Assembly: GCA_947165825.1 (NCBI GenBank)
Contig: CAMVBX010000004.1
Location: 1 to 42,024, forward strand
Length of the DNA: 42,024 nt
From: an uncultured Clostridia bacterium
GTDB taxonomy: Bacteria; Bacillota; Clostridia; Oscillospirales; Oscillospiraceae
Direction: 5' to 3'
The first letter of the stretch is position 1, and each line of letters starts with the position of its first letter. The notes beneath the pieces are model-generated. The model was not told where the DNA came from. It did no database searches and saw nothing but the letters and a program-made list of their open reading frames with translations. Below, one piece after another: positions 5,871 through 38,130 of the stretch. A program made the translations under genes and the position numbers.

Positions 5871-5912
5871 AGAAAAGCCGTTGCTTTCCAAATGGAGAGC
5901 AACGACTTTTCG
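5871..5912. repeat. Left copy of a 42-nt direct repeat forming a hairpin
   Basis: AGAAAAGCCGTTGCTTTCCAAATGGAGAGCAACGACTTTTCG, identical to 6085-6126; arms AAAAGCCGTTGCTTTCC / GGAGAGCAACGACTTTT around AAAT. Confidence 0.95.
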
Positions 5913-6084
5913 CAGACTGTAGACAAACCCGAAAATGGAACGAAAACGGGAAGGAAGATAGCGCGAAAGAAACCCAGGAGGGGTGTCTTTCGCGTTCAAT
6001 CAGAAGTTTTTCGAACAATTTCTACCGTATTTCCTGTTCGAAAAACTTGCTTCAGCGGGGCGACAAGACTTTGTCGACACGCTG
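5913..6084 (+). mobile_element. MITE-like non-coding element copy 1 (E1), 172 bp
   Basis: Ends CAGACTGTAGACAAA (5913-5927) and TTTGTCGACACGCTG (6070-6084) are 12/15 inverted repeats, exactly bounded by the 42-nt direct repeats; interior hairpins 5962-5994 (9-bp arms) and 6004-6048 (14-bp perfect arms). Confidence 0.7.
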
Positions 6085-6126
6085 AGAAAAGCCGTTGCTT
6101 TCCAAATGGAGAGCAACGACTTTTCG
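6085..6126. repeat. Right copy of the 42-nt hairpin direct repeat
   Basis: Identical to 5871-5912. Confidence 0.95.
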
Positions 6127-7864: not shown

Positions 7865-8490
7865 ACTATATCGAAAACACCTATATCTGCCTGGCCGCGC
7901 CGCTGCTGCTGGCCATTCTTTGCCTGCGGGCGGACGCGCGCAGATCCCTTTCCTTTGTGCTTGCGGGCATGACCGCCTGCCTGCTTTCCGCCTATGTCAG
8001 CGCCTTTATCGCGGACACGAGCGGCACCGACCTGACCAGCGCCTCCTATGAGATCGCCCCGGTGGTGGAGGAAATCATGAAATCCCTGCCGGTGCTGTTC
8101 TATCTGCTGGTGTTTGAGCCGAAGAAGAGGAACGCCATCAGCGGCACGCTGATGACGGCGGTGGGGTTTGCCACCTTTGAAAACATCTGCTTTCTCACTT
8201 CCTTCGGCACGTCCGACCTCCTGCGGCTGCTGATCCGCGGCTTCGGCACCGGAGCAATGCATGTGGTGTGCGGCATGGTGGTGGCGATCGGTCTCTTCTT
8301 TCTCTGGGATCAGGTGTGGCTGCAGGCGGTGGGCGGCTTTGCGCTTCTCTGCGTCGTGATCACTTTCCACGCGATCTTCAACATCTTTGTGGGCCAGACC
8401 GGCGTCGTCTTCTGGATCGGCAGTGTGATCCCCCTGACGATAATGTTCCTCTACCATGCCTTCTTCCGCAGAATGATCCGCTTTGACTGA
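7861..8490 (+). CDS. PrsW-like intramembrane metalloprotease
   Basis: Motifs EIAPVVEEIMK, GFATFENICF, GAMHVVCGMVVA, FHAIFNIF in a polytopic protein; ATGA overlap with the upstream stop. The track start at 7399 is an upstream in-frame extension. Confidence 0.82.
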   Translation: MNYIENTYICLAAPLLLAILCLRADARRSLSFVLAGMTACLLSAYVSAFIADTSGTDLTSASYEIAPVVEEIMKSLPVLFYLLVFEPKKRNAISGTLMTAVGFATFENICFLTSFGTSDLLRLLIRGFGTGAMHVVCGMVVAIGLFFLWDQVWLQAVGGFALLCVVITFHAIFNIFVGQTGVVFWIGSVIPLTIMFLYHAFFRRMIRFD

Positions 8491-8513
8491 CTCTCCCCTG
8501 CCCCGCGCTATCC

Positions 8514-8536
8514 AAACGCCCCCTTGCGGGGCGTTT
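8514..8536. repeat. Left hairpin repeat flanking E2
   Basis: AAACGCCCCCTTGCGGGGCGTTT; differs from 8759-8782 by one missing G. Confidence 0.9.
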
Positions 8537-8758
8537 GAGTGTGTCGACAAAGTCGACACGCTTCGACCGGGACCCACTTCGTTGGGCTCCCGGTCGATTT
8601 GGTTTGCACTACGCTCCCCGCACTCGCTGCGCTCGCACAGTACGCTCCGTGAGCGGTATTTTGGCCCAGAAATGAATTCCGGGCCAAAATGGATCTTGAC
8701 TCTATTCGCGCCTACGGGCGCGAACTCTGCGAGGCTTTGGTACTTTGTCTACAGTCTG
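8537..8758 (-). mobile_element. MITE-like non-coding element copy 2 (E2), 222 bp, inverted relative to E1
   Basis: Ends GAGTGTGTCGACAAA (8537-8551) and TTTGTCTACAGTCTG (8744-8758, exact reverse complement of E1's left end); bounded exactly by hairpin repeats; interior hairpins ~8564-8596 and 8658-8690. Confidence 0.7.
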
Positions 8759-8786
8759 AAACGCCCCCTTGCGGGGGCGTTTTTTG
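8759..8786 (+). terminator. Rho-independent terminator (right hairpin repeat of E2)
   Basis: AAACGCCCCCTTGCGGGGGCGTTTTTTG. Confidence 0.8.
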
Positions 8787-8878
8787 CGTCTGAAAATTTC
8801 AAAACAGGGTTCGGGTTTTTTCCCGTTTTTGGACACTGATAGGATGAGCGCAATTTTTGGAGGGAGGAGTGTCCATTG

Positions 8879-9280
8879 ATGACGGATGCCGAGAGAGTCC
8901 AAGCCCTGTATGAGCGGGTCAAACGCTTGCAGCGGAAACGGGAACGGCGAAAAACGGCTTCTCTGAGCGTCGCCTGTACTGGCACGGGCCTGTGCCTGAT
9001 GCTGATGATCTTCGGCGGAGGCGGAGCGCACCGGGGCGGCACAGCCGGTCTCTTCACCGGAGCGACCATACTGTTTGAGGGTGCCGGAGTGTATGTGCTG
9101 GTGGCACTGCTGGCGTTTATGGCAGGTGTCGTGATCACGCTTCTCTGCCTCCGCAGGCAAAGACATCAACCGCGACCCCCAGGGGATCCCCAAATCCGGC
9201 CAAAGGACAGATCTCAGGATCAGTCAAAAGGCAGGTCACAGAATCACCACCAGGAAGAAGATACGGAGGAAAGACAATGA
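8879..9280 (+). CDS. Small 2-TM membrane protein, paralogous to 6880..7209
   Basis: RVQALYERVKRLQRKRERR and LVALLAFMAGVVITLLC align with RVDELHRRMTLRRKSRVRR and LVALVAFCLGVLATVLC of the earlier protein; RBS ggagggaggag. Confidence 0.75.
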   Translation: MTDAERVQALYERVKRLQRKRERRKTASLSVACTGTGLCLMLMIFGGGGAHRGGTAGLFTGATILFEGAGVYVLVALLAFMAGVVITLLCLRRQRHQPRPPGDPQIRPKDRSQDQSKGRSQNHHQEEDTEERQ

Positions 9281-12200
9281 GAACCAAGCGCATCTTATCT
9301 GTTTTGCTGGCGGCGTGCCTCCTGTTCGGGTTGATCCCGGCGGCGGCAATGCCTGTCCGGGCCGCAAACGCCGACCCGGTCTACAACCGCGCCGCCACGC
9401 CGGAGTACATCATCTTCAATGCGAAAAGCGGCGACAGCGAGGACTACTTCAAAAGCGTGATGAAGGATTCCAAGTTTAACGCCGTGGCCGACGGCAAGTT
9501 CGTCCTTTACAACAGCGACACCAAGCTGAAGTATGACACCAAGGTCAGCCAGATCGGCCTGAGCGAATATGTCTGGGACGACTTCCGCTTTTCGAACCTG
9601 GCCAATCTCAGCGACATGTGCGATGAGCTGGAGGTTGGACTGGCCGTCACGCTGACCACCAACCCCCATAAGCACACCTATGACCTGCTCTACACCGCCA
9701 ATATCCTCAGCTATATGGACGTGGTGCTCAGCAAGAATGTCATGGACATAGGCGACGGCATCTACAAGGCCAACGGCTACTCCAAGTCCATGACCACGCT
9801 GCGCCGGGGCAACGCCACCTTCCGGGACATCCCCGCGGCCGTCTACGCCACGTCGGAACAGAACGGCGCCCCCCTGGTGCTGAACTTCTGGAACTATGAG
9901 AAAACCTACGACGGCGGCACCCGGACCTGCAAGTGCGGCGGTTCCGCCAAGGATACCGTCGTCAGCTTCTACGACGGCACCGCGCCGGAGCTCGTTTCGA
10001 TGGACCTCTCGGCCATACGCGGCGGCGTGGCCATCCCGTATTGCTGGGACTTCGGCAAGGGCGACATCATCAACATCGAGCTCACGTTCTCGGAGCCCCT
10101 CCGCTTCGCCGACGACAAGGCAGCCGGCAAGGGCGACGTGTGTGTCGGCCTGATGGTGAGCGGCCACACCGACCAGATCCCCGCCTATCTGACCAGCCTG
10201 GACGGCAACAAGCTCACCTTCCAGTGCGAGGCGCCCAGCGTGATCCCGACGGGCGAGACCGGCGTCTGGTCGGTCACCGGCGTGGATCTGACCGGCTCAC
10301 AGACCGGCGGAAAGGGCCTGATGAGCAAAAAGACCATGGACACCGGCATTCCTCTCACCTATATCTACGGCAACAACAAGACCTATACGGCCACCAAGCC
10401 CAACAGTGCCTCCAGCGCGGTGGGCTACACCGAGGCTACCAGCTATGTCACCGATATGGCCGGCAACAGCCTGATTGCCAGATATCTGAACAACTACATC
10501 ATCATCGAGGACAACATCATCCCCAGGAGCTTCTACATCGACATCCAGGATCCCTATGTGGCCCGGGCCGACATCATCCCGAGCGAGAGCTACAACGCCG
10601 ACGTCAAGCAGCTGCTCGGAAAAACCGGGATGACGCCGAACACCGCCAACTATGAGGACGCAAGCGACCGTTACCTGGGCGTGGGCGACAGCTTCAAGGT
10701 GAAGCTGTACATGAACGAGCTTTTGTACTGCAGCACCTGGCCGACCATCAAGCTGAACATCACCTACGACGGCAACCCGAACTGGAAGGTCGAGCTGAAT
10801 TCTTTAAGAAGCTACACCGCCAGCGCCACCGATGTGAGCGCCGACTGTGGCCTGGGCATCTCCAAGGGACAGGTCACCGTGTTCGAGACCGGCTACTTCG
10901 TCATCACTGACGACATGCAGGTGGATCCCGCCAGCGAGGACGGAGTCGTCGTGATCGAATCGATCAACTTTGGAAACGGGGTGACGGACTACGCGGACAA
11001 CCCGGCCCAGAACGTCACCTCCCAGCTGGACATCGCCCAGGATTTCCTCCTGGATACCGACCTGCCGTCGGTGTCGCTGGATCCCGCTGTCCAGATCGGC
11101 GGCGTCAACAATAGCTTCTACTTGCCCTTCACGACGACGGACAGCGGGTCCGGCGTACTCCGGCTGCCCGGCAAGCTGAAGCTGCAGGACCCGAGCGGGT
11201 CCACGCTCCCGTTCCAGTACGCCCTCACCGACTCCCCGAACACCCCCTCCGCCTGGAGCAGCGGAACCATGGGCAGCTACATCGAATTTAGCCAGACCAC
11301 GACCAAGCAGTACCTGCACTTCAAGCCGGTGAGCGGGGCGGCCTACAACGCTGCGCTGGTCTTCAATCTGATGGACTATGCGGGCAACGTGGGCGACGGC
11401 AGTCCGCAGTATATCACCGGCGCCGCCTTGGACAGCCTCCCGCCCACTGTCAAGGCGACGGGCAGCAGCAGGGGCTATGACAACATCACCAGTGTGGGTA
11501 CCCTTTCGGTGGACATCGACGTGCAGGACGTCAGCGACGTCAGCAAGGTGGAGTACACCTGGCAGGTCTACACCGTCGACCGGGACGCCGTGGAACTTCT
11601 GCTCGACAGCAGCTGGACCGCCTCCGTCAAGGAGAACGACGCATGGATCGCCGAAGCCGCAGTGCCTGGAGGCACCCTGTTCCAGAAGAACCTCTGGGTG
11701 CGGGCTACCGACGCCTTCGACTACACCAGCCTCACAAACCTGGGCGAGTTCAGCTACGACCTGGCGAGTGACGTGAAATTCGAGCTGGAATACTCCACCG
11801 ACATCCAGACAAAAGCCAGCCTGAAGTTTACAGAGTATGATTCTGAAACCGGTTTGCTGGTCATAGACGTCATGCGCGACAACAGCGATGTGCACATGAT
11901 CCTCTTGGTTTCCGATGAAATCTTAGAGAGAAAAGACATTTTTCAAAATCTCTTCGATCAAACTTTTGTTTTCAGTCAGGCAGAAATCAACAATGATAAC
12001 GGAGTGCGTTATACTGAGAAACAAGGTTGGTACTACAAACCGTTTGAGGACTACACCGGCAACCTGTATGTGACCGTCTACTCCGGAAATGAAAACGCAA
12101 TAGAGTGCGATGACTGGTATTACGTCGGTGAAGAAGGAAATAAAACTGCGTACAGAGACATCACGATCAACAACACCGCCTCGGTGCAGCGCTTCACCCT

Positions 12201-15200
12201 GCGGCAGGCCGCGCTCAGCGCTACCGCTTACGACGTGTTCAGCGGCGACGTTAAGACTCTGTTCACCCCCGCCAGCAGCGCGGACGATGACAAACTCACC
12301 GGCGTAGTCACGGTCGTGCCCTGGACTGTGGATTCCGAGGAGCGTTACTCCACCACCCTGGCGGGCGTACAGGTCAAGTTCAACCTGGGCGGCGACAAGA
12401 ACGGCTGGGATTACGAGGATATCGACTGGCAGAACTCCTTCCTTGACCTGTACAAGGGAGGCTATAGCTCACCCACAGAAAACGAGGCAGAGCGCGAGAA
12501 GCTGCTCGACGGGACGTTCCGGCTCTGCGCCATCGGCAGCGGGCCGGTCCAGACGATCACCCTGCCGGATTCCGACCTCTATGACGATTTCCTCTACGGC
12601 GACATCTACCTGATCCTGGCAAGGCACAGTGCGCCGGACGCGCCCTATTTCATCCGGTTAAGAACGTCAGAAGATCTCATAATCAACCTCGACGACACTG
12701 AGCCCGGCGTCCTTGAGCTGCAGCACCTGGGTCGGCAATACTCGCCGGATGAGTACATGTACATCGAGAAATATTACCGTGACCTTTCCTTCGATCCGAG
12801 CACCACGATCTATATCCCGGCGGACAGGACGCCGGTGGTGCTTTCGGTGGAGGCGATGAAGGAATCCTGGGATGAAGACACCGGCGAAAGGATCCTGGAA
12901 CCCCACGATCTGTATAATGTTAGTAACGGCGCAGGCTACCGGGGCGCCATGGACATCGTCGCCTGGAACGCGGCCGACCCGGACACGAAGATCAGCCTGG
13001 ACCTCGCCTGGCTGATGTATAAGAACGATAACCTCGAAGGCGAAAACGAGGAGTTCCTCATCTCGCTGAAAGAGGTGCGGGACGGCGACTACAACCCGTT
13101 CGCTTACGGGAGAGTCTGGCTGAATGATACCAGCAAGCGGCTGCTGCGCTTCGGCCCGGAGACCGACGCGTCGGCGGGCGTCATCGGCGTGACGCCGGAC
13201 AGGGACAACATTGTCGCCCTGCAGATCGTCTACGCCAACGGGCGGACCTCCGGCATCACCTATCTCACTATCCACCCGGTGACGATGAAGGCGGAGGGCA
13301 CGGTGTCCGTCGAGACGAAGGACGGCCTCCAGCTCAGCCCCGGCAGCATCGCCACCGTCGGCCCGGACGAGGCGACCGTCGTCTTCACCCCTTCGGCCGA
13401 CACCAACACCCTGGGTCTGGACTTCACCCTCACGGCGATCGATCCGAATACGAATCAATTCACTTGGAGAGATCCGATCCCGATGGTCGCCCGAAGCGAC
13501 GGCAGCTACGCCGCCCAGATCCCGAATGCGGATTTCTGGCACTATTTTAAGGATAAGGAGGAGACTAACAACAGCATATACCCCGGCGTCATTCTTCCGG
13601 TTGGATACGGCAATTATACCTCCGGATACGAATACCGTGAAGATGGGCCCCTCTGCTTCTTCACGGTCTACGCCACGGACCAGTATGAGAATAAAGTCGT
13701 GATGGGTACTGCGGACTGGGGCGTCATCCCGGACGCCACGCCTCCGATATTCGTGGACGATCATTTTAATGAAATGGGAGAGATCGAGGACCATGGAGAC
13801 GGCACCTATACCGCCAGCTTCCGAATCATCGACGACAGCCTCTTCTCCCGGGATGCGGAAACGGGAACCTTCCTGTCCCGCCCGATGGAGCTGGAGTTCT
13901 TCTATGGGACGAAGTATGCCGAGGCCGCGGGAAAGCCTGCGGGCAGACTGACCTTCGCCGGCGTGGAAGACGGCTTCGAATGGACGGCAAGCGAGGGGAA
14001 CAACCTGGGCATCTACCGGGTCACGGCGGAGCGGACCTACTTTGTTGCTGCGGAGCTGGAGGGCGGAGTCGTATTAGGTTATCCCGTTCTGGAAGTCACC
14101 GCTGAGGGCGTGATCAGCCCCGAGATCACGGCCGCCACCGATATGACCCTGTTCCTCCGGGGCACCGACGCCCACGGCAACACCAACGTCTGGAATATGC
14201 CCGACCCGGACGATGTATTCTATCAAGAGGCCCTGGATCCCGGCGGCTATTGGCGCCTGGACAATCCCGGCTTCGTAACCGCATGGGACGTCACCGGCAA
14301 CACGCCGGAGGCCGTAAGCTGGCAGTACGTGCCAACCGGCGCGGGCGACGACATGGGCCTGGAGATCACCTTCAACGTGCCGGTGCTGCCCGAGGCGAGC
14401 TGGATCGATCCCGATCCCGGTGCTCAAGGATTCAGCTGCGTGTGGCAGGACGCCTTCCCCATCTGGAAGGACGGGGAGTGGACGATCAGCTTCTATGACG
14501 CTTACGGCAATCTCTATAACCAGACCCTGACGCTGGACGACGTTATCGGCGACTACGGCATCGACCTGAGCTTCTCCACGCTGGACTATGTGGCGGCGGA
14601 GACCGGCGTTGTGATCACGGCGGCGGAGGACGGCGAGGGCGAGACGGTCACCGGCAGCACCACCGCCACGGCGAACGGCGTCTACACCGTGGAGCGCACC
14701 GCGGGCGGCAAGACGGACGTCCTGACCATCCATCTGACGAACATCGTCTCCGGCGGCCCGGAGACCAGAGTGTTCTTCTACCTGGAGGAGTTCGGCGAGA
14801 TGTACGAGGCTGGCGCTGAAGATCAGTTCCAGGGCACGACCTACGGCCCGGTGGTAGTCTCTTACTCCACCGACCGGGAGACCAGCCCTGTGGGCGAGAA
14901 CACGATGACCTTCAGGAGCGGGGAAAACGACGAATTTATCTTCCAGTATTACGACATCCCCACCGACTTCACCTATACGATCAGCGGCAAGCTCTACGAA
15001 GACTACGGCATTACCCTGGGCGCGCCGCCGGAGCCCATTCCGGATGAGGAGGCCCCGCTCATCGACCTGGTGACCCTCTGGAAGCAGCGGGGCGGCGGCT
15101 TTGAGCAGACCAACGCCTTCCCCGGCAGCGCGGAGGAAACGGACATCAGGAGCGCCATCGAGGAATCCGGCCTGGCCCAGAGCTTCGACTTTGTGGTGAA

Positions 15201-17148
15201 GGCCAGCGACTACTCCCCGTGGAAGGTGCTGGTGATGGCGGCTCCGCCTTCCGGCAGCATCAGCTATGACACGCCCAGCGACGTGATCGACGGCGTATCG
15301 GTGCAGGGCAACAACGTGCTTGTGGACAAGAACGTGGCAGCCGACTTCTACATCGTCGCGGTGGACCACGCGACTGCGGATAAGGCAGCACCGGCCAGTG
15401 CGGACAACTACAGCTGGATCAGGATCCCCTACGGCAGCTATCACTTTGACACCACGCCGCCCGTGATCGAGTATGTCACGATCTCGGAAAGCATGTATTC
15501 CAAGGTGGTCTATCTCCGGGCGACCGACCTGGACGACGACGGCAATGAAACCGCCGGCACGGTCCTCAGCGGCGCGGGCGTCGTGGAGGAGACGGTGACC
15601 ATCGACGGAGTGGTCTACACCCACAAGCTGATCTTCAAGGATAACGACACTGTGACAGTGGTCACCGCCACCGACGGGGCTGGCAACAGCACCGCAGAGA
15701 ACATCCAGGTGAGCGGCATCGACGTGACGGCGCCCACGCTGTATGTCACCTGGTCCCCCTGCTTCTCGAACACGGCCGGCGACGATCTGGATCCGAGCAA
15801 TCCTCCGATGGGCCCGGTGAATGTGAACGTGGTGGCCCATATCGCCAGCGACAAACCGATCTACAGCGTCACCGCCAATGACGGTGAAGAGCTGATCTTC
15901 AATGAGGATCACATCGCCGAGACCGCGTGGGGCGCAGTGGAATACAACGCCGAGCGGATCACGGTGCGCTTCACGACGAAGGAGACGGCGGGCGTCACGC
16001 TGACCGTCACCGCGCCGAACGGAAAGTCCACCGACCAGACGGTCCTGCTTGGGGCAGGCGTGATCGACAAGGACGCCCCAGTGGTCATCGAGACGGTCGA
16101 GCCGGTCATGCGCGCAGGCTTCACGGTGCCCTATGCGGAAACGCACACCCTGGGCTTCGATGAGAACGTGTTCTGCATGAACAGCGGCACGGTGGGCGTG
16201 CTTTACAACTTCAACGATCCCTTCACGGTGACGCTGACAGACAACAACGAAGCGTCCTTCCGCTTCGTGGACAAGGCGGGCAACGTCACAGTCTACACGG
16301 TCGTGCCCAAAAACGTGATCGACAACACGAGGCCGGTGGTCTCGTCGGAGGTTGCGGATGACGCCAACGCCACAAACGGCGCGGTCGCGGTGACGGTGAT
16401 CGCGGACGAATGGTGCACGTTGACCGCCAAGGACCGCAATGTGTCCTGCGGCGCAATGACTGAGAGCACCGATGAAAACGGCGACATCGTCTGGATCGGA
16501 ACGGTCAGCGTCTCCCAGAACGGCACCTTCCGGGTGACTGCGGCAGACGCTGCGGGCAACACGGCCGACACGACGTTCACCGTCAACAACATCGACAAGG
16601 TGTTGCCCAACCTGAGCTTCACCAAATCCATCGTATCGGTGCGCCAGGACAGCGCGGAATCCGCACTGACGGCGCTGCTGGACGCGGGCGTCACGGCCTG
16701 GGACAATGTGGAGATCGCGGAGGGCACCCTCAGCTACGACACAAGTGAGGTGGATCTCACCCTGTCCGGCGTCTACCCGGTGACCTACACCGTGGAGGAC
16801 ATCGTGGGCAACGTGGGTCAGGCGATCCGCTATGTGAAGGTCGTCGACAAGTATCAGCTGGTCATCGCGATCGACGGCGAGCTGACTGAGCCGGACGGCG
16901 TCATCAACGTTGACATCGGGACCCACACGCTGGAGGTCAGCGGACTGCGGCAGGAGAACGAGCCCTACACGCTGAAGCTGATCGAGGGCATGTGGTCCGG
17001 AGGTCAGATGAAGCGGGTCACCGAAGAGATGAGCATCCCGGTGGACTCGGACGGCAAATTCACCCTCACTTCCTACAACGCATATACCCTGTACATCGTG
17101 ACTCAGTCGCGGCAGACCTATCGGACGCTGCTCATCGTGGACAAATAA
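9277..17148 (+). CDS. Giant (2623 aa) secreted Ig-like repeat protein
   Basis: Signal peptide MRTKRILSVLLAACLLFGLIPAAAMPVRA; C-terminal array of beta domains joined by D-x-x-x-P linkers (DTTPPVIEYV, DVTAPTLYV, DKDAPVVIETV, DNTRPVVSSEV, DKVLPNLSF); ATGA overlap with 8879..9280; no SLH or LPXTG anchor seen. Confidence 0.88.
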   Translation: MRTKRILSVLLAACLLFGLIPAAAMPVRAANADPVYNRAATPEYIIFNAKSGDSEDYFKSVMKDSKFNAVADGKFVLYNSDTKLKYDTKVSQIGLSEYVWDDFRFSNLANLSDMCDELEVGLAVTLTTNPHKHTYDLLYTANILSYMDVVLSKNVMDIGDGIYKANGYSKSMTTLRRGNATFRDIPAAVYATSEQNGAPLVLNFWNYEKTYDGGTRTCKCGGSAKDTVVSFYDGTAPELVSMDLSAIRGGVAIPYCWDFGKGDIINIELTFSEPLRFADDKAAGKGDVCVGLMVSGHTDQIPAYLTSLDGNKLTFQCEAPSVIPTGETGVWSVTGVDLTGSQTGGKGLMSKKTMDTGIPLTYIYGNNKTYTATKPNSASSAVGYTEATSYVTDMAGNSLIARYLNNYIIIEDNIIPRSFYIDIQDPYVARADIIPSESYNADVKQLLGKTGMTPNTANYEDASDRYLGVGDSFKVKLYMNELLYCSTWPTIKLNITYDGNPNWKVELNSLRSYTASATDVSADCGLGISKGQVTVFETGYFVITDDMQVDPASEDGVVVIESINFGNGVTDYADNPAQNVTSQLDIAQDFLLDTDLPSVSLDPAVQIGGVNNSFYLPFTTTDSGSGVLRLPGKLKLQDPSGSTLPFQYALTDSPNTPSAWSSGTMGSYIEFSQTTTKQYLHFKPVSGAAYNAALVFNLMDYAGNVGDGSPQYITGAALDSLPPTVKATGSSRGYDNITSVGTLSVDIDVQDVSDVSKVEYTWQVYTVDRDAVELLLDSSWTASVKENDAWIAEAAVPGGTLFQKNLWVRATDAFDYTSLTNLGEFSYDLASDVKFELEYSTDIQTKASLKFTEYDSETGLLVIDVMRDNSDVHMILLVSDEILERKDIFQNLFDQTFVFSQAEINNDNGVRYTEKQGWYYKPFEDYTGNLYVTVYSGNENAIECDDWYYVGEEGNKTAYRDITINNTASVQRFTLRQAALSATAYDVFSGDVKTLFTPASSADDDKLTGVVTVVPWTVDSEERYSTTLAGVQVKFNLGGDKNGWDYEDIDWQNSFLDLYKGGYSSPTENEAEREKLLDGTFRLCAIGSGPVQTITLPDSDLYDDFLYGDIYLILARHSAPDAPYFIRLRTSEDLIINLDDTEPGVLELQHLGRQYSPDEYMYIEKYYRDLSFDPSTTIYIPADRTPVVLSVEAMKESWDEDTGERILEPHDLYNVSNGAGYRGAMDIVAWNAADPDTKISLDLAWLMYKNDNLEGENEEFLISLKEVRDGDYNPFAYGRVWLNDTSKRLLRFGPETDASAGVIGVTPDRDNIVALQIVYANGRTSGITYLTIHPVTMKAEGTVSVETKDGLQLSPGSIATVGPDEATVVFTPSADTNTLGLDFTLTAIDPNTNQFTWRDPIPMVARSDGSYAAQIPNADFWHYFKDKEETNNSIYPGVILPVGYGNYTSGYEYREDGPLCFFTVYATDQYENKVVMGTADWGVIPDATPPIFVDDHFNEMGEIEDHGDGTYTASFRIIDDSLFSRDAETGTFLSRPMELEFFYGTKYAEAAGKPAGRLTFAGVEDGFEWTASEGNNLGIYRVTAERTYFVAAELEGGVVLGYPVLEVTAEGVISPEITAATDMTLFLRGTDAHGNTNVWNMPDPDDVFYQEALDPGGYWRLDNPGFVTAWDVTGNTPEAVSWQYVPTGAGDDMGLEITFNVPVLPEASWIDPDPGAQGFSCVWQDAFPIWKDGEWTISFYDAYGNLYNQTLTLDDVIGDYGIDLSFSTLDYVAAETGVVITAAEDGEGETVTGSTTATANGVYTVERTAGGKTDVLTIHLTNIVSGGPETRVFFYLEEFGEMYEAGAEDQFQGTTYGPVVVSYSTDRETSPVGENTMTFRSGENDEFIFQYYDIPTDFTYTISGKLYEDYGITLGAPPEPIPDEEAPLIDLVTLWKQRGGGFEQTNAFPGSAEETDIRSAIEESGLAQSFDFVVKASDYSPWKVLVMAAPPSGSISYDTPSDVIDGVSVQGNNVLVDKNVAADFYIVAVDHATADKAAPASADNYSWIRIPYGSYHFDTTPPVIEYVTISESMYSKVVYLRATDLDDDGNETAGTVLSGAGVVEETVTIDGVVYTHKLIFKDNDTVTVVTATDGAGNSTAENIQVSGIDVTAPTLYVTWSPCFSNTAGDDLDPSNPPMGPVNVNVVAHIASDKPIYSVTANDGEELIFNEDHIAETAWGAVEYNAERITVRFTTKETAGVTLTVTAPNGKSTDQTVLLGAGVIDKDAPVVIETVEPVMRAGFTVPYAETHTLGFDENVFCMNSGTVGVLYNFNDPFTVTLTDNNEASFRFVDKAGNVTVYTVVPKNVIDNTRPVVSSEVADDANATNGAVAVTVIADEWCTLTAKDRNVSCGAMTESTDENGDIVWIGTVSVSQNGTFRVTAADAAGNTADTTFTVNNIDKVLPNLSFTKSIVSVRQDSAESALTALLDAGVTAWDNVEIAEGTLSYDTSEVDLTLSGVYPVTYTVEDIVGNVGQAIRYVKVVDKYQLVIAIDGELTEPDGVINVDIGTHTLEVSGLRQENEPYTLKLIEGMWSGGQMKRVTEEMSIPVDSDGKFTLTSYNAYTLYIVTQSRQTYRTLLIVDK

Positions 17149-38033: not shown

Positions 38034-38130
38034 CAAACTGCAGACAAAGCGGATCAAGCCGCGCAGAGTTCGCGCCCTCAGGCCCGAAATATCGGGAATC
38101 GTTTCCGGGCGGAATTCCTTACCGGCCGGA
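38034..38130 (+). repeat. Degenerate copy (E3) of the E1/E2 element family
   Basis: CAAACTGCAGACAAA end (13/15 to CAGACTGTAGACAAA); 16-nt CGCAGAGTTCGCGCCC shared with the minus strand of E2 at 8716-8731; GAATTC-containing hairpin at a collinear offset (78 vs 79 nt). Confidence 0.6.

Follow-up and report, generated by a model that had tools for sequence, protein, structure and literature searches.

The window, i.e., the whole stretch of 42,024 nucleotides that was analysed, holds two short elements, E2 and E1, with a degraded relic of a third one resembling E2 (Table 1). E2 and the pair of terminator-like hairpins between which it sits are directly 3′ of a prsW-like gene (stop at 8490). E2 is without coding capacity, the sole long plus strand open reading frame across it (8483-8839) being a mechanical one that crosses both hairpins. 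Beyond, at 9277-17148 and 3′ of a small membrane-protein open reading frame, is a 2623-aa open reading frame with a signal-peptide-like start, which resembles a large surface protein.

Table 1. Positions of E2, E1 and associated features in the window
Feature	Position	Strand	Remarks
E2, 222-bp non-autonomous IS1182-type element (MITE)	8537..8758	+	oriented B end to A end
E2 left (B) terminus	8537..8562	+	15-nt inverted repeat GAGTGTGTCGACAAA and following bases fold into a terminal hairpin
E2 right (A) terminal inverted repeat TTTGTCTACAGTCTG	8744..8758	+	same sequence as the right end of a transposase-bearing IS1182 element (G199)
E2 captured interior, structured intergenic repeat	8570..8739	+	also present, free of element ends, in the own genome and its relatives
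E2 left target hairpin copy AAACGCCCCCTTGCGGGGCGTTT	8514..8536		one G shorter than right copy
E2 right target hairpin copy AAACGCCCCCTTGCGGGGGCGTTT	8759..8782		direct repeat of 8514-8536; T tract at end
E1, 172-bp element, same family as E2	5913..6084	-	equals the family consensus
E1 duplicated 42-nt hairpin, first copy	5871..5912		
E1 duplicated 42-nt hairpin, second copy	6085..6126		42/42 identical to first
Degraded third E2-like relic	38034..38088, perhaps further	-	right end TTTGTCTGCAGTTTG still adjoins a terminator-like hairpin

The first-pass annotation had the right end of E2 as the exact reverse complement of the left end of E1, and both 15-mers were located and are exact, with TTTGTCTACAGTCTG at 8744-8758 on the plus strand and at 5913-5927 on the minus strand. 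The other end of E2, GAGTGTGTCGACAAA at 8537-8551, is, as had also been said, two bases off its E1 counterpart CAGCGTGTCGACAAA. The TTTGTCTACAGTCTG 15-mer has six matches at ≤3 mismatches against 0.6 expected. That the interiors differ is equally borne out, since alignment of E1 and E2 from both ends gives 13/15 and 15/15 and then drops to 22/40 and 21/40, and past the terminal 15-20 nt there is no clear resemblance. The claimed bounding of E2, to the base, by hairpin copies is right too, the right copy being a perfect 10-bp stem and the left copy the same without one G; the folding z-scores of these flanking hairpins are -3.9 and -4.5. The hairpin adjoining the relic is AGTCAGGGGACCGCATCCGCGGTCCCCTGA (minus strand).

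A high-copy family and its footprint

The genome in question (G000) is a MAG of 2.2 Mb, in 198 contigs and 73% complete. Genome-wide at ≤1 mismatch the A end has 79 matches and the B end 77, reversed controls giving 0, so that there are about 80 element ends, and 39 copies have flanks that made them measurable. The commonest copy length is the 172 bp of the E1 type, and the 35 copies of that length have a median pairwise identity of 0.99, which agrees with the proposal that the termini are conserved across a family. Fewer copies are of the E2 type, at 219-222 bp (C4, C34, C40, C45, C54), and full-length matches to E2 itself have 98-99% identity at G000:C45 and C40, and 87-88% at C34 and C54. 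At least 25 contigs start within ~160 nt of an element end, and the element itself is probably what breaks the assembly. One E2-type variant (L008/L111; G000:C131:4381-4729) is 350 bp long, has an additional internal segment and is flanked by a 27-nt hairpin duplication.

In 30 of the 39 copies a direct repeat of 21-42 nt adjoins both ends, the same locus-specific hairpin being present on each side, and an equal direct-repeat score was reached at 9 of 3940 random positions. Comparison of flanks across the copies in the genome also upheld the claim that the hairpins are specific to their loci and not common to unrelated copies. The length of the repeat follows that of the right-flank hairpin, measured independently, with r = 0.98; a hairpin is present in the left flank of 95% of copies and in the right flank of 79%, the figure for random positions being 2.8%. 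Chance as the origin of this arrangement is ruled out by shuffles, reversed-pattern controls and the 3940 random positions. The duplication is perfect in 12 of the 30, and E2's own is one base off; the full-length E2 copies at C34 and C54 have both the common ends and the hairpin duplications. A T-rich stretch follows in 19/30. As the first and last base of the duplication pair in only 23/30 copies, the cut does not always coincide with the end of the stem.

The nine copies in which a matching direct repeat is absent comprise nested ones (L012, L052), ones whose two hairpins differ or have diverged (L023, L063, L068) and ones with no right hairpin (L002, L003, L017, L040). At L052 (G000:C16:14517-14712) the order is E1-type copy, solo E2-type left-end hairpin, second copy of the target hairpin, i.e., a nested or tandem insertion, and the two different hairpins that flank the element at L023 and L068 perhaps reflect recombination between copies.

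Which came first, the element or the hairpin? The flanks of all own-genome copies were used as queries against about 1.45 Mb of sequence from a related species (G003). Both flanks match adjacently and co-linearly for 21 elements, and in all 16 of the junctions that were read the element is absent and one terminator-like hairpin lies between the flanks. At three of them (L027, L036, L102) G003's one hairpin aligns to both G000 copies, which makes the left and right flank alignments overlap by 27-31 nt; at the others the hairpin sequence has diverged. The insertions at two of these 16 junctions (L002, L005) are of the E2 type. Junctions of this type argue that the hairpin was there first and that insertion doubled it. 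The empty site of E2 itself was not found, the neighbourhood after the prsW-like gene not being conserved in the relatives compared, where a 37%-identical homologue in G002 was all that turned up. Nor was that of E1, for which the preceding gene is conserved in relatives and the neighbourhood beyond it is not.

Transposase relatives and the E2 interior

The ends lead to transposases. In G199 an IS1182-family transposase tail is followed by TTTGTCTACAGTCTG, 15/15 with the right end of E2, and then by a terminator hairpin (L249), and another such tail in the same genome (L275) likewise ends in exact TTTGTCTACAGTCTG at a hairpin, the contigs concerned being C49 and C39; in G255 a related transposase tail ends in TTTGTCGACAGGCTG against a hairpin. 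A genome of the same genus encodes a 471-aa IS1182-family transposase (NF033551, 389 bits; PF13751, PF05598), the left hairpin being missing at that copy. The footprint recurs at MITEs of G199 and of same-genus G002 whose A end is the same. As for how widely TTTGTCTACAGTCTG occurs, at ≤1 mismatch it is multi-copy, with 6 to 54 matches, in other genera of the family (G199, G208, G110, G095, G127, G196), and in G199 the elements with this end measure about 160 bp and have another interior.

A wider search of Clostridia yielded 80 IS1182 loci, 61 of them with both flanks; two G005 matches to NF033551 (L141, L145), which did not display the end type in question, were left out. A direct repeat with a score of at least 18, of 19-64 nt and comprising the whole hairpin, accompanies 40 of these 61 elements, and its length correlates with hairpin length at r = 0.96. 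In the complete genome of Chakrabartyella piscis all eight copies fetched have a whole-hairpin duplication (L229-L234, L236, L237). The end consensus of the IS1182 elements of Clostridia is CAGnnTGTC(A/G)AAAAA, and L224 has a right end that differs from that of E2 by one base.

An IS1182 transposase was not found in the own genome with the PF13751 and NF033551 profiles, and inspection of unpaired ends inside its contigs for a longer, transposase-bearing element revealed none; as completeness is 73% and the MAG assembly breaks at repeats, many of its 198 contigs ending in the element, this is a weak counter-argument. E2 has IS1182-type inverted repeats, shares target and duplication with autonomous relatives, is short, lacks a transposase gene and has dispersed near-identical copies. 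Its ends and footprint make it an IS1182-type MITE with the whole hairpin as target duplication, an identity for what the first-pass annotation had left unnamed. To the fuller reading, in which E2 would be a non-autonomous high-copy MITE mobilised in trans by a DDE transposase of the IS1182 family that duplicates the whole target hairpin, we assign from the sequence comparisons a probability of roughly 0.9.

What lies between the ends has a separate history. Each of six same-genus genomes has 14-25 matches to positions ~34-203 of E2, and the G003 sequence has eight near-full copies of this interior, most without element ends and often directly past a stop codon. One of these (L345) is at the same gene junction as an own-genome copy, L115, so that copy was inherited by descent. 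Compared with shuffles E2 folds with z -6.0, and its composition, IS1182-type ends around an older intergenic repeat, accounts for such strong folding. No Rfam family matched above gathering score in the window. The interior repeat (window 8570-8739; L072, L073, L090, L345 and others) is also matched in part in another family, by G030 over E2 positions 150-205. The earlier preference for hairpin-targeted insertion over a composite repeat has gained from the element-free orthologous sites, with their one uninterrupted hairpin, but in part needs refinement: with a captured repeat as its interior, E2 is composite in another sense.

Rival readings and a possible mechanism

Might the hairpins instead belong to the element, as the terminator ends of a longer repeat unit, and simply have been moved along? 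Most copies do have a hairpin on each side. However, each locus has a hairpin of its own sequence whereas the element hardly varies between copies, and the element-free orthologous sites already hold one hairpin, which leaves this reading hardly credible. Random transposition followed by selection retaining only insertions at terminators, the long duplication being due to an ordinary staggered cut, has the attraction that terminators would be safe intergenic places of the sort that selection would favour. Most transposases generate target duplications of fixed length, and a stagger fixed for each transposase does not sit with lengths from 19 to 64 nt that follow the hairpin (r = 0.96-0.98). 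Such tracking rules out a fixed stagger, and the combination of chance and selection is accordingly very improbable. The direct repeats of 0-60 bp given for IS1182 in ISfinder would fit duplications of the whole hairpin.

Stem-loop replacement like that of IS1272, in which the element ends up where the removed target hairpin had been, shares with the present case its transposase family and its choice of transcription terminators as targets (PMC4923244, PMC5678879), and the few copies missing one hairpin could be such events, or later deletions. Yet here the hairpin is both kept and duplicated, perfectly so in the 12 of 30 copies already mentioned, and the 40 IS1182 relatives duplicate theirs as well; as the general explanation replacement is therefore very unlikely. 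More can be said for E2 being mainly a structured RNA or regulatory element with transposon ends that are incidental, given its folding z of -6.0 and the occurrence of its interior repeat without ends, often directly past stop codons, but this too is unlikely: Rfam provided no match in the window, full-length copies at C34 and C54 keep ends and hairpin duplications, and the fold belongs to the captured repeat.

Returning to an IS1182-type MITE that duplicates its target hairpin, the ~80 related ends, mostly with the same hairpin footprint, suggest that it is probably the shape of the target, rather than its sequence, that the transposase recognises. Attack would be at the two symmetric 5′ feet of an extruded hairpin. 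These feet would be close together at the junction and one hairpin length apart in the sequence, so that gap repair would copy the whole hairpin. The substrate could be a double-stranded cruciform or a single-stranded hairpin, the data being compatible with both. E2 itself probably originated through the enclosure of a resident intergenic repeat by IS1182-type ends. With a terminator left on each side of the insertion, there would be little harm to either neighbouring gene. The broader proposal, for which we judge the odds to be even, is that an extruded cruciform sets the duplication length via its 5′ feet, and that each copy would then be a record of a DNA hairpin formed in vivo; in this IS1182 clade, duplication of the whole hairpin would be normal and deletion of the IS1272 type exceptional, the whole amounting to a harmless-insertion strategy in which both genes keep a terminator.

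Relation to known systems

IS1272/TnSha1, an IS1182-family element of Staphylococcus, targets terminator hairpins with partial deletion and no target duplication (PMC4923244). In the portions of the two accounts drawn on here, the likeness to E2 extends to an IS1182-family transposase and a hairpin target, often a terminator, with no sequence consensus (PMC4923244, PMC5678879). However, IS1272 deletes or replaces the hairpin without duplication and carries its own transposase, whereas the E2 family duplicates the whole hairpin and E2 is without a transposase. For the ISCbo5 and ISBma2-like IS1182 elements of Clostridium, the relevant part of the report has all sites but one as gene-end hairpins, probable terminators, and speaks of a ‘surrounding hairpin’ (PMC3098183). 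Those elements are autonomous, in contrast to the MITEs of the E2 family, and that part of the report contains no analysis of duplication length or empty sites for ISCbo5 (PMC3098183). The IS1182 elements of Oscillospiraceae and other Clostridia (e.g., L177, L189, L229-L234, L236, L237) are like E2 in their CAGnnTGTC inverted repeats and whole-hairpin duplications, but are ~1.5 kb with a transposase gene whereas E2 is 222 bp and non-coding.

In the sections used of Wan et al. 2017, the 5′-foot geometry is pathway b of a model for structure-dependent transposition, drawn as a possibility only, and 3′-foot attack with hairpin loss is what was argued for IS1272 (PMC5678879). Pathway b was just sketched there; the natural insertions described here fit it (PMC5678879). 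Palindromic targets for some IS1182 members are attributed to Siguier et al. 2015 in passages of papers citing that work (PMC4923244, PMC5678879). Among bacterial MITEs and small repeats, RUP, BOX and QMITE are, like E2, short, high-copy and non-coding with inverted-repeat ends, going by the part of a MITE review consulted (PMC10969869), and in that same part no mention was found of IS1182, hairpin targets or whole-hairpin duplication (PMC10969869). No paper measuring whole-hairpin duplication by IS1182 elements was found in the literature covered, which was a part of it, and priority is left unclaimed. Hairpin targeting by the IS1182 family, as with IS1272 and ISCbo5, is already published; added here are the MITEs, a length law over ~70 insertions, element-free sites and a captured interior.

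Some 70 natural insertions with one end type, and with duplications of 19 to 64 nt that follow the hairpin, are strong natural evidence for structure-read targeting and the 5′-foot pathway. Near-identical copies break assemblies, which helps explain the fragmentation of MAGs such as this one, and terminators on both sides would explain how the family reached ~80 copies without much harm.
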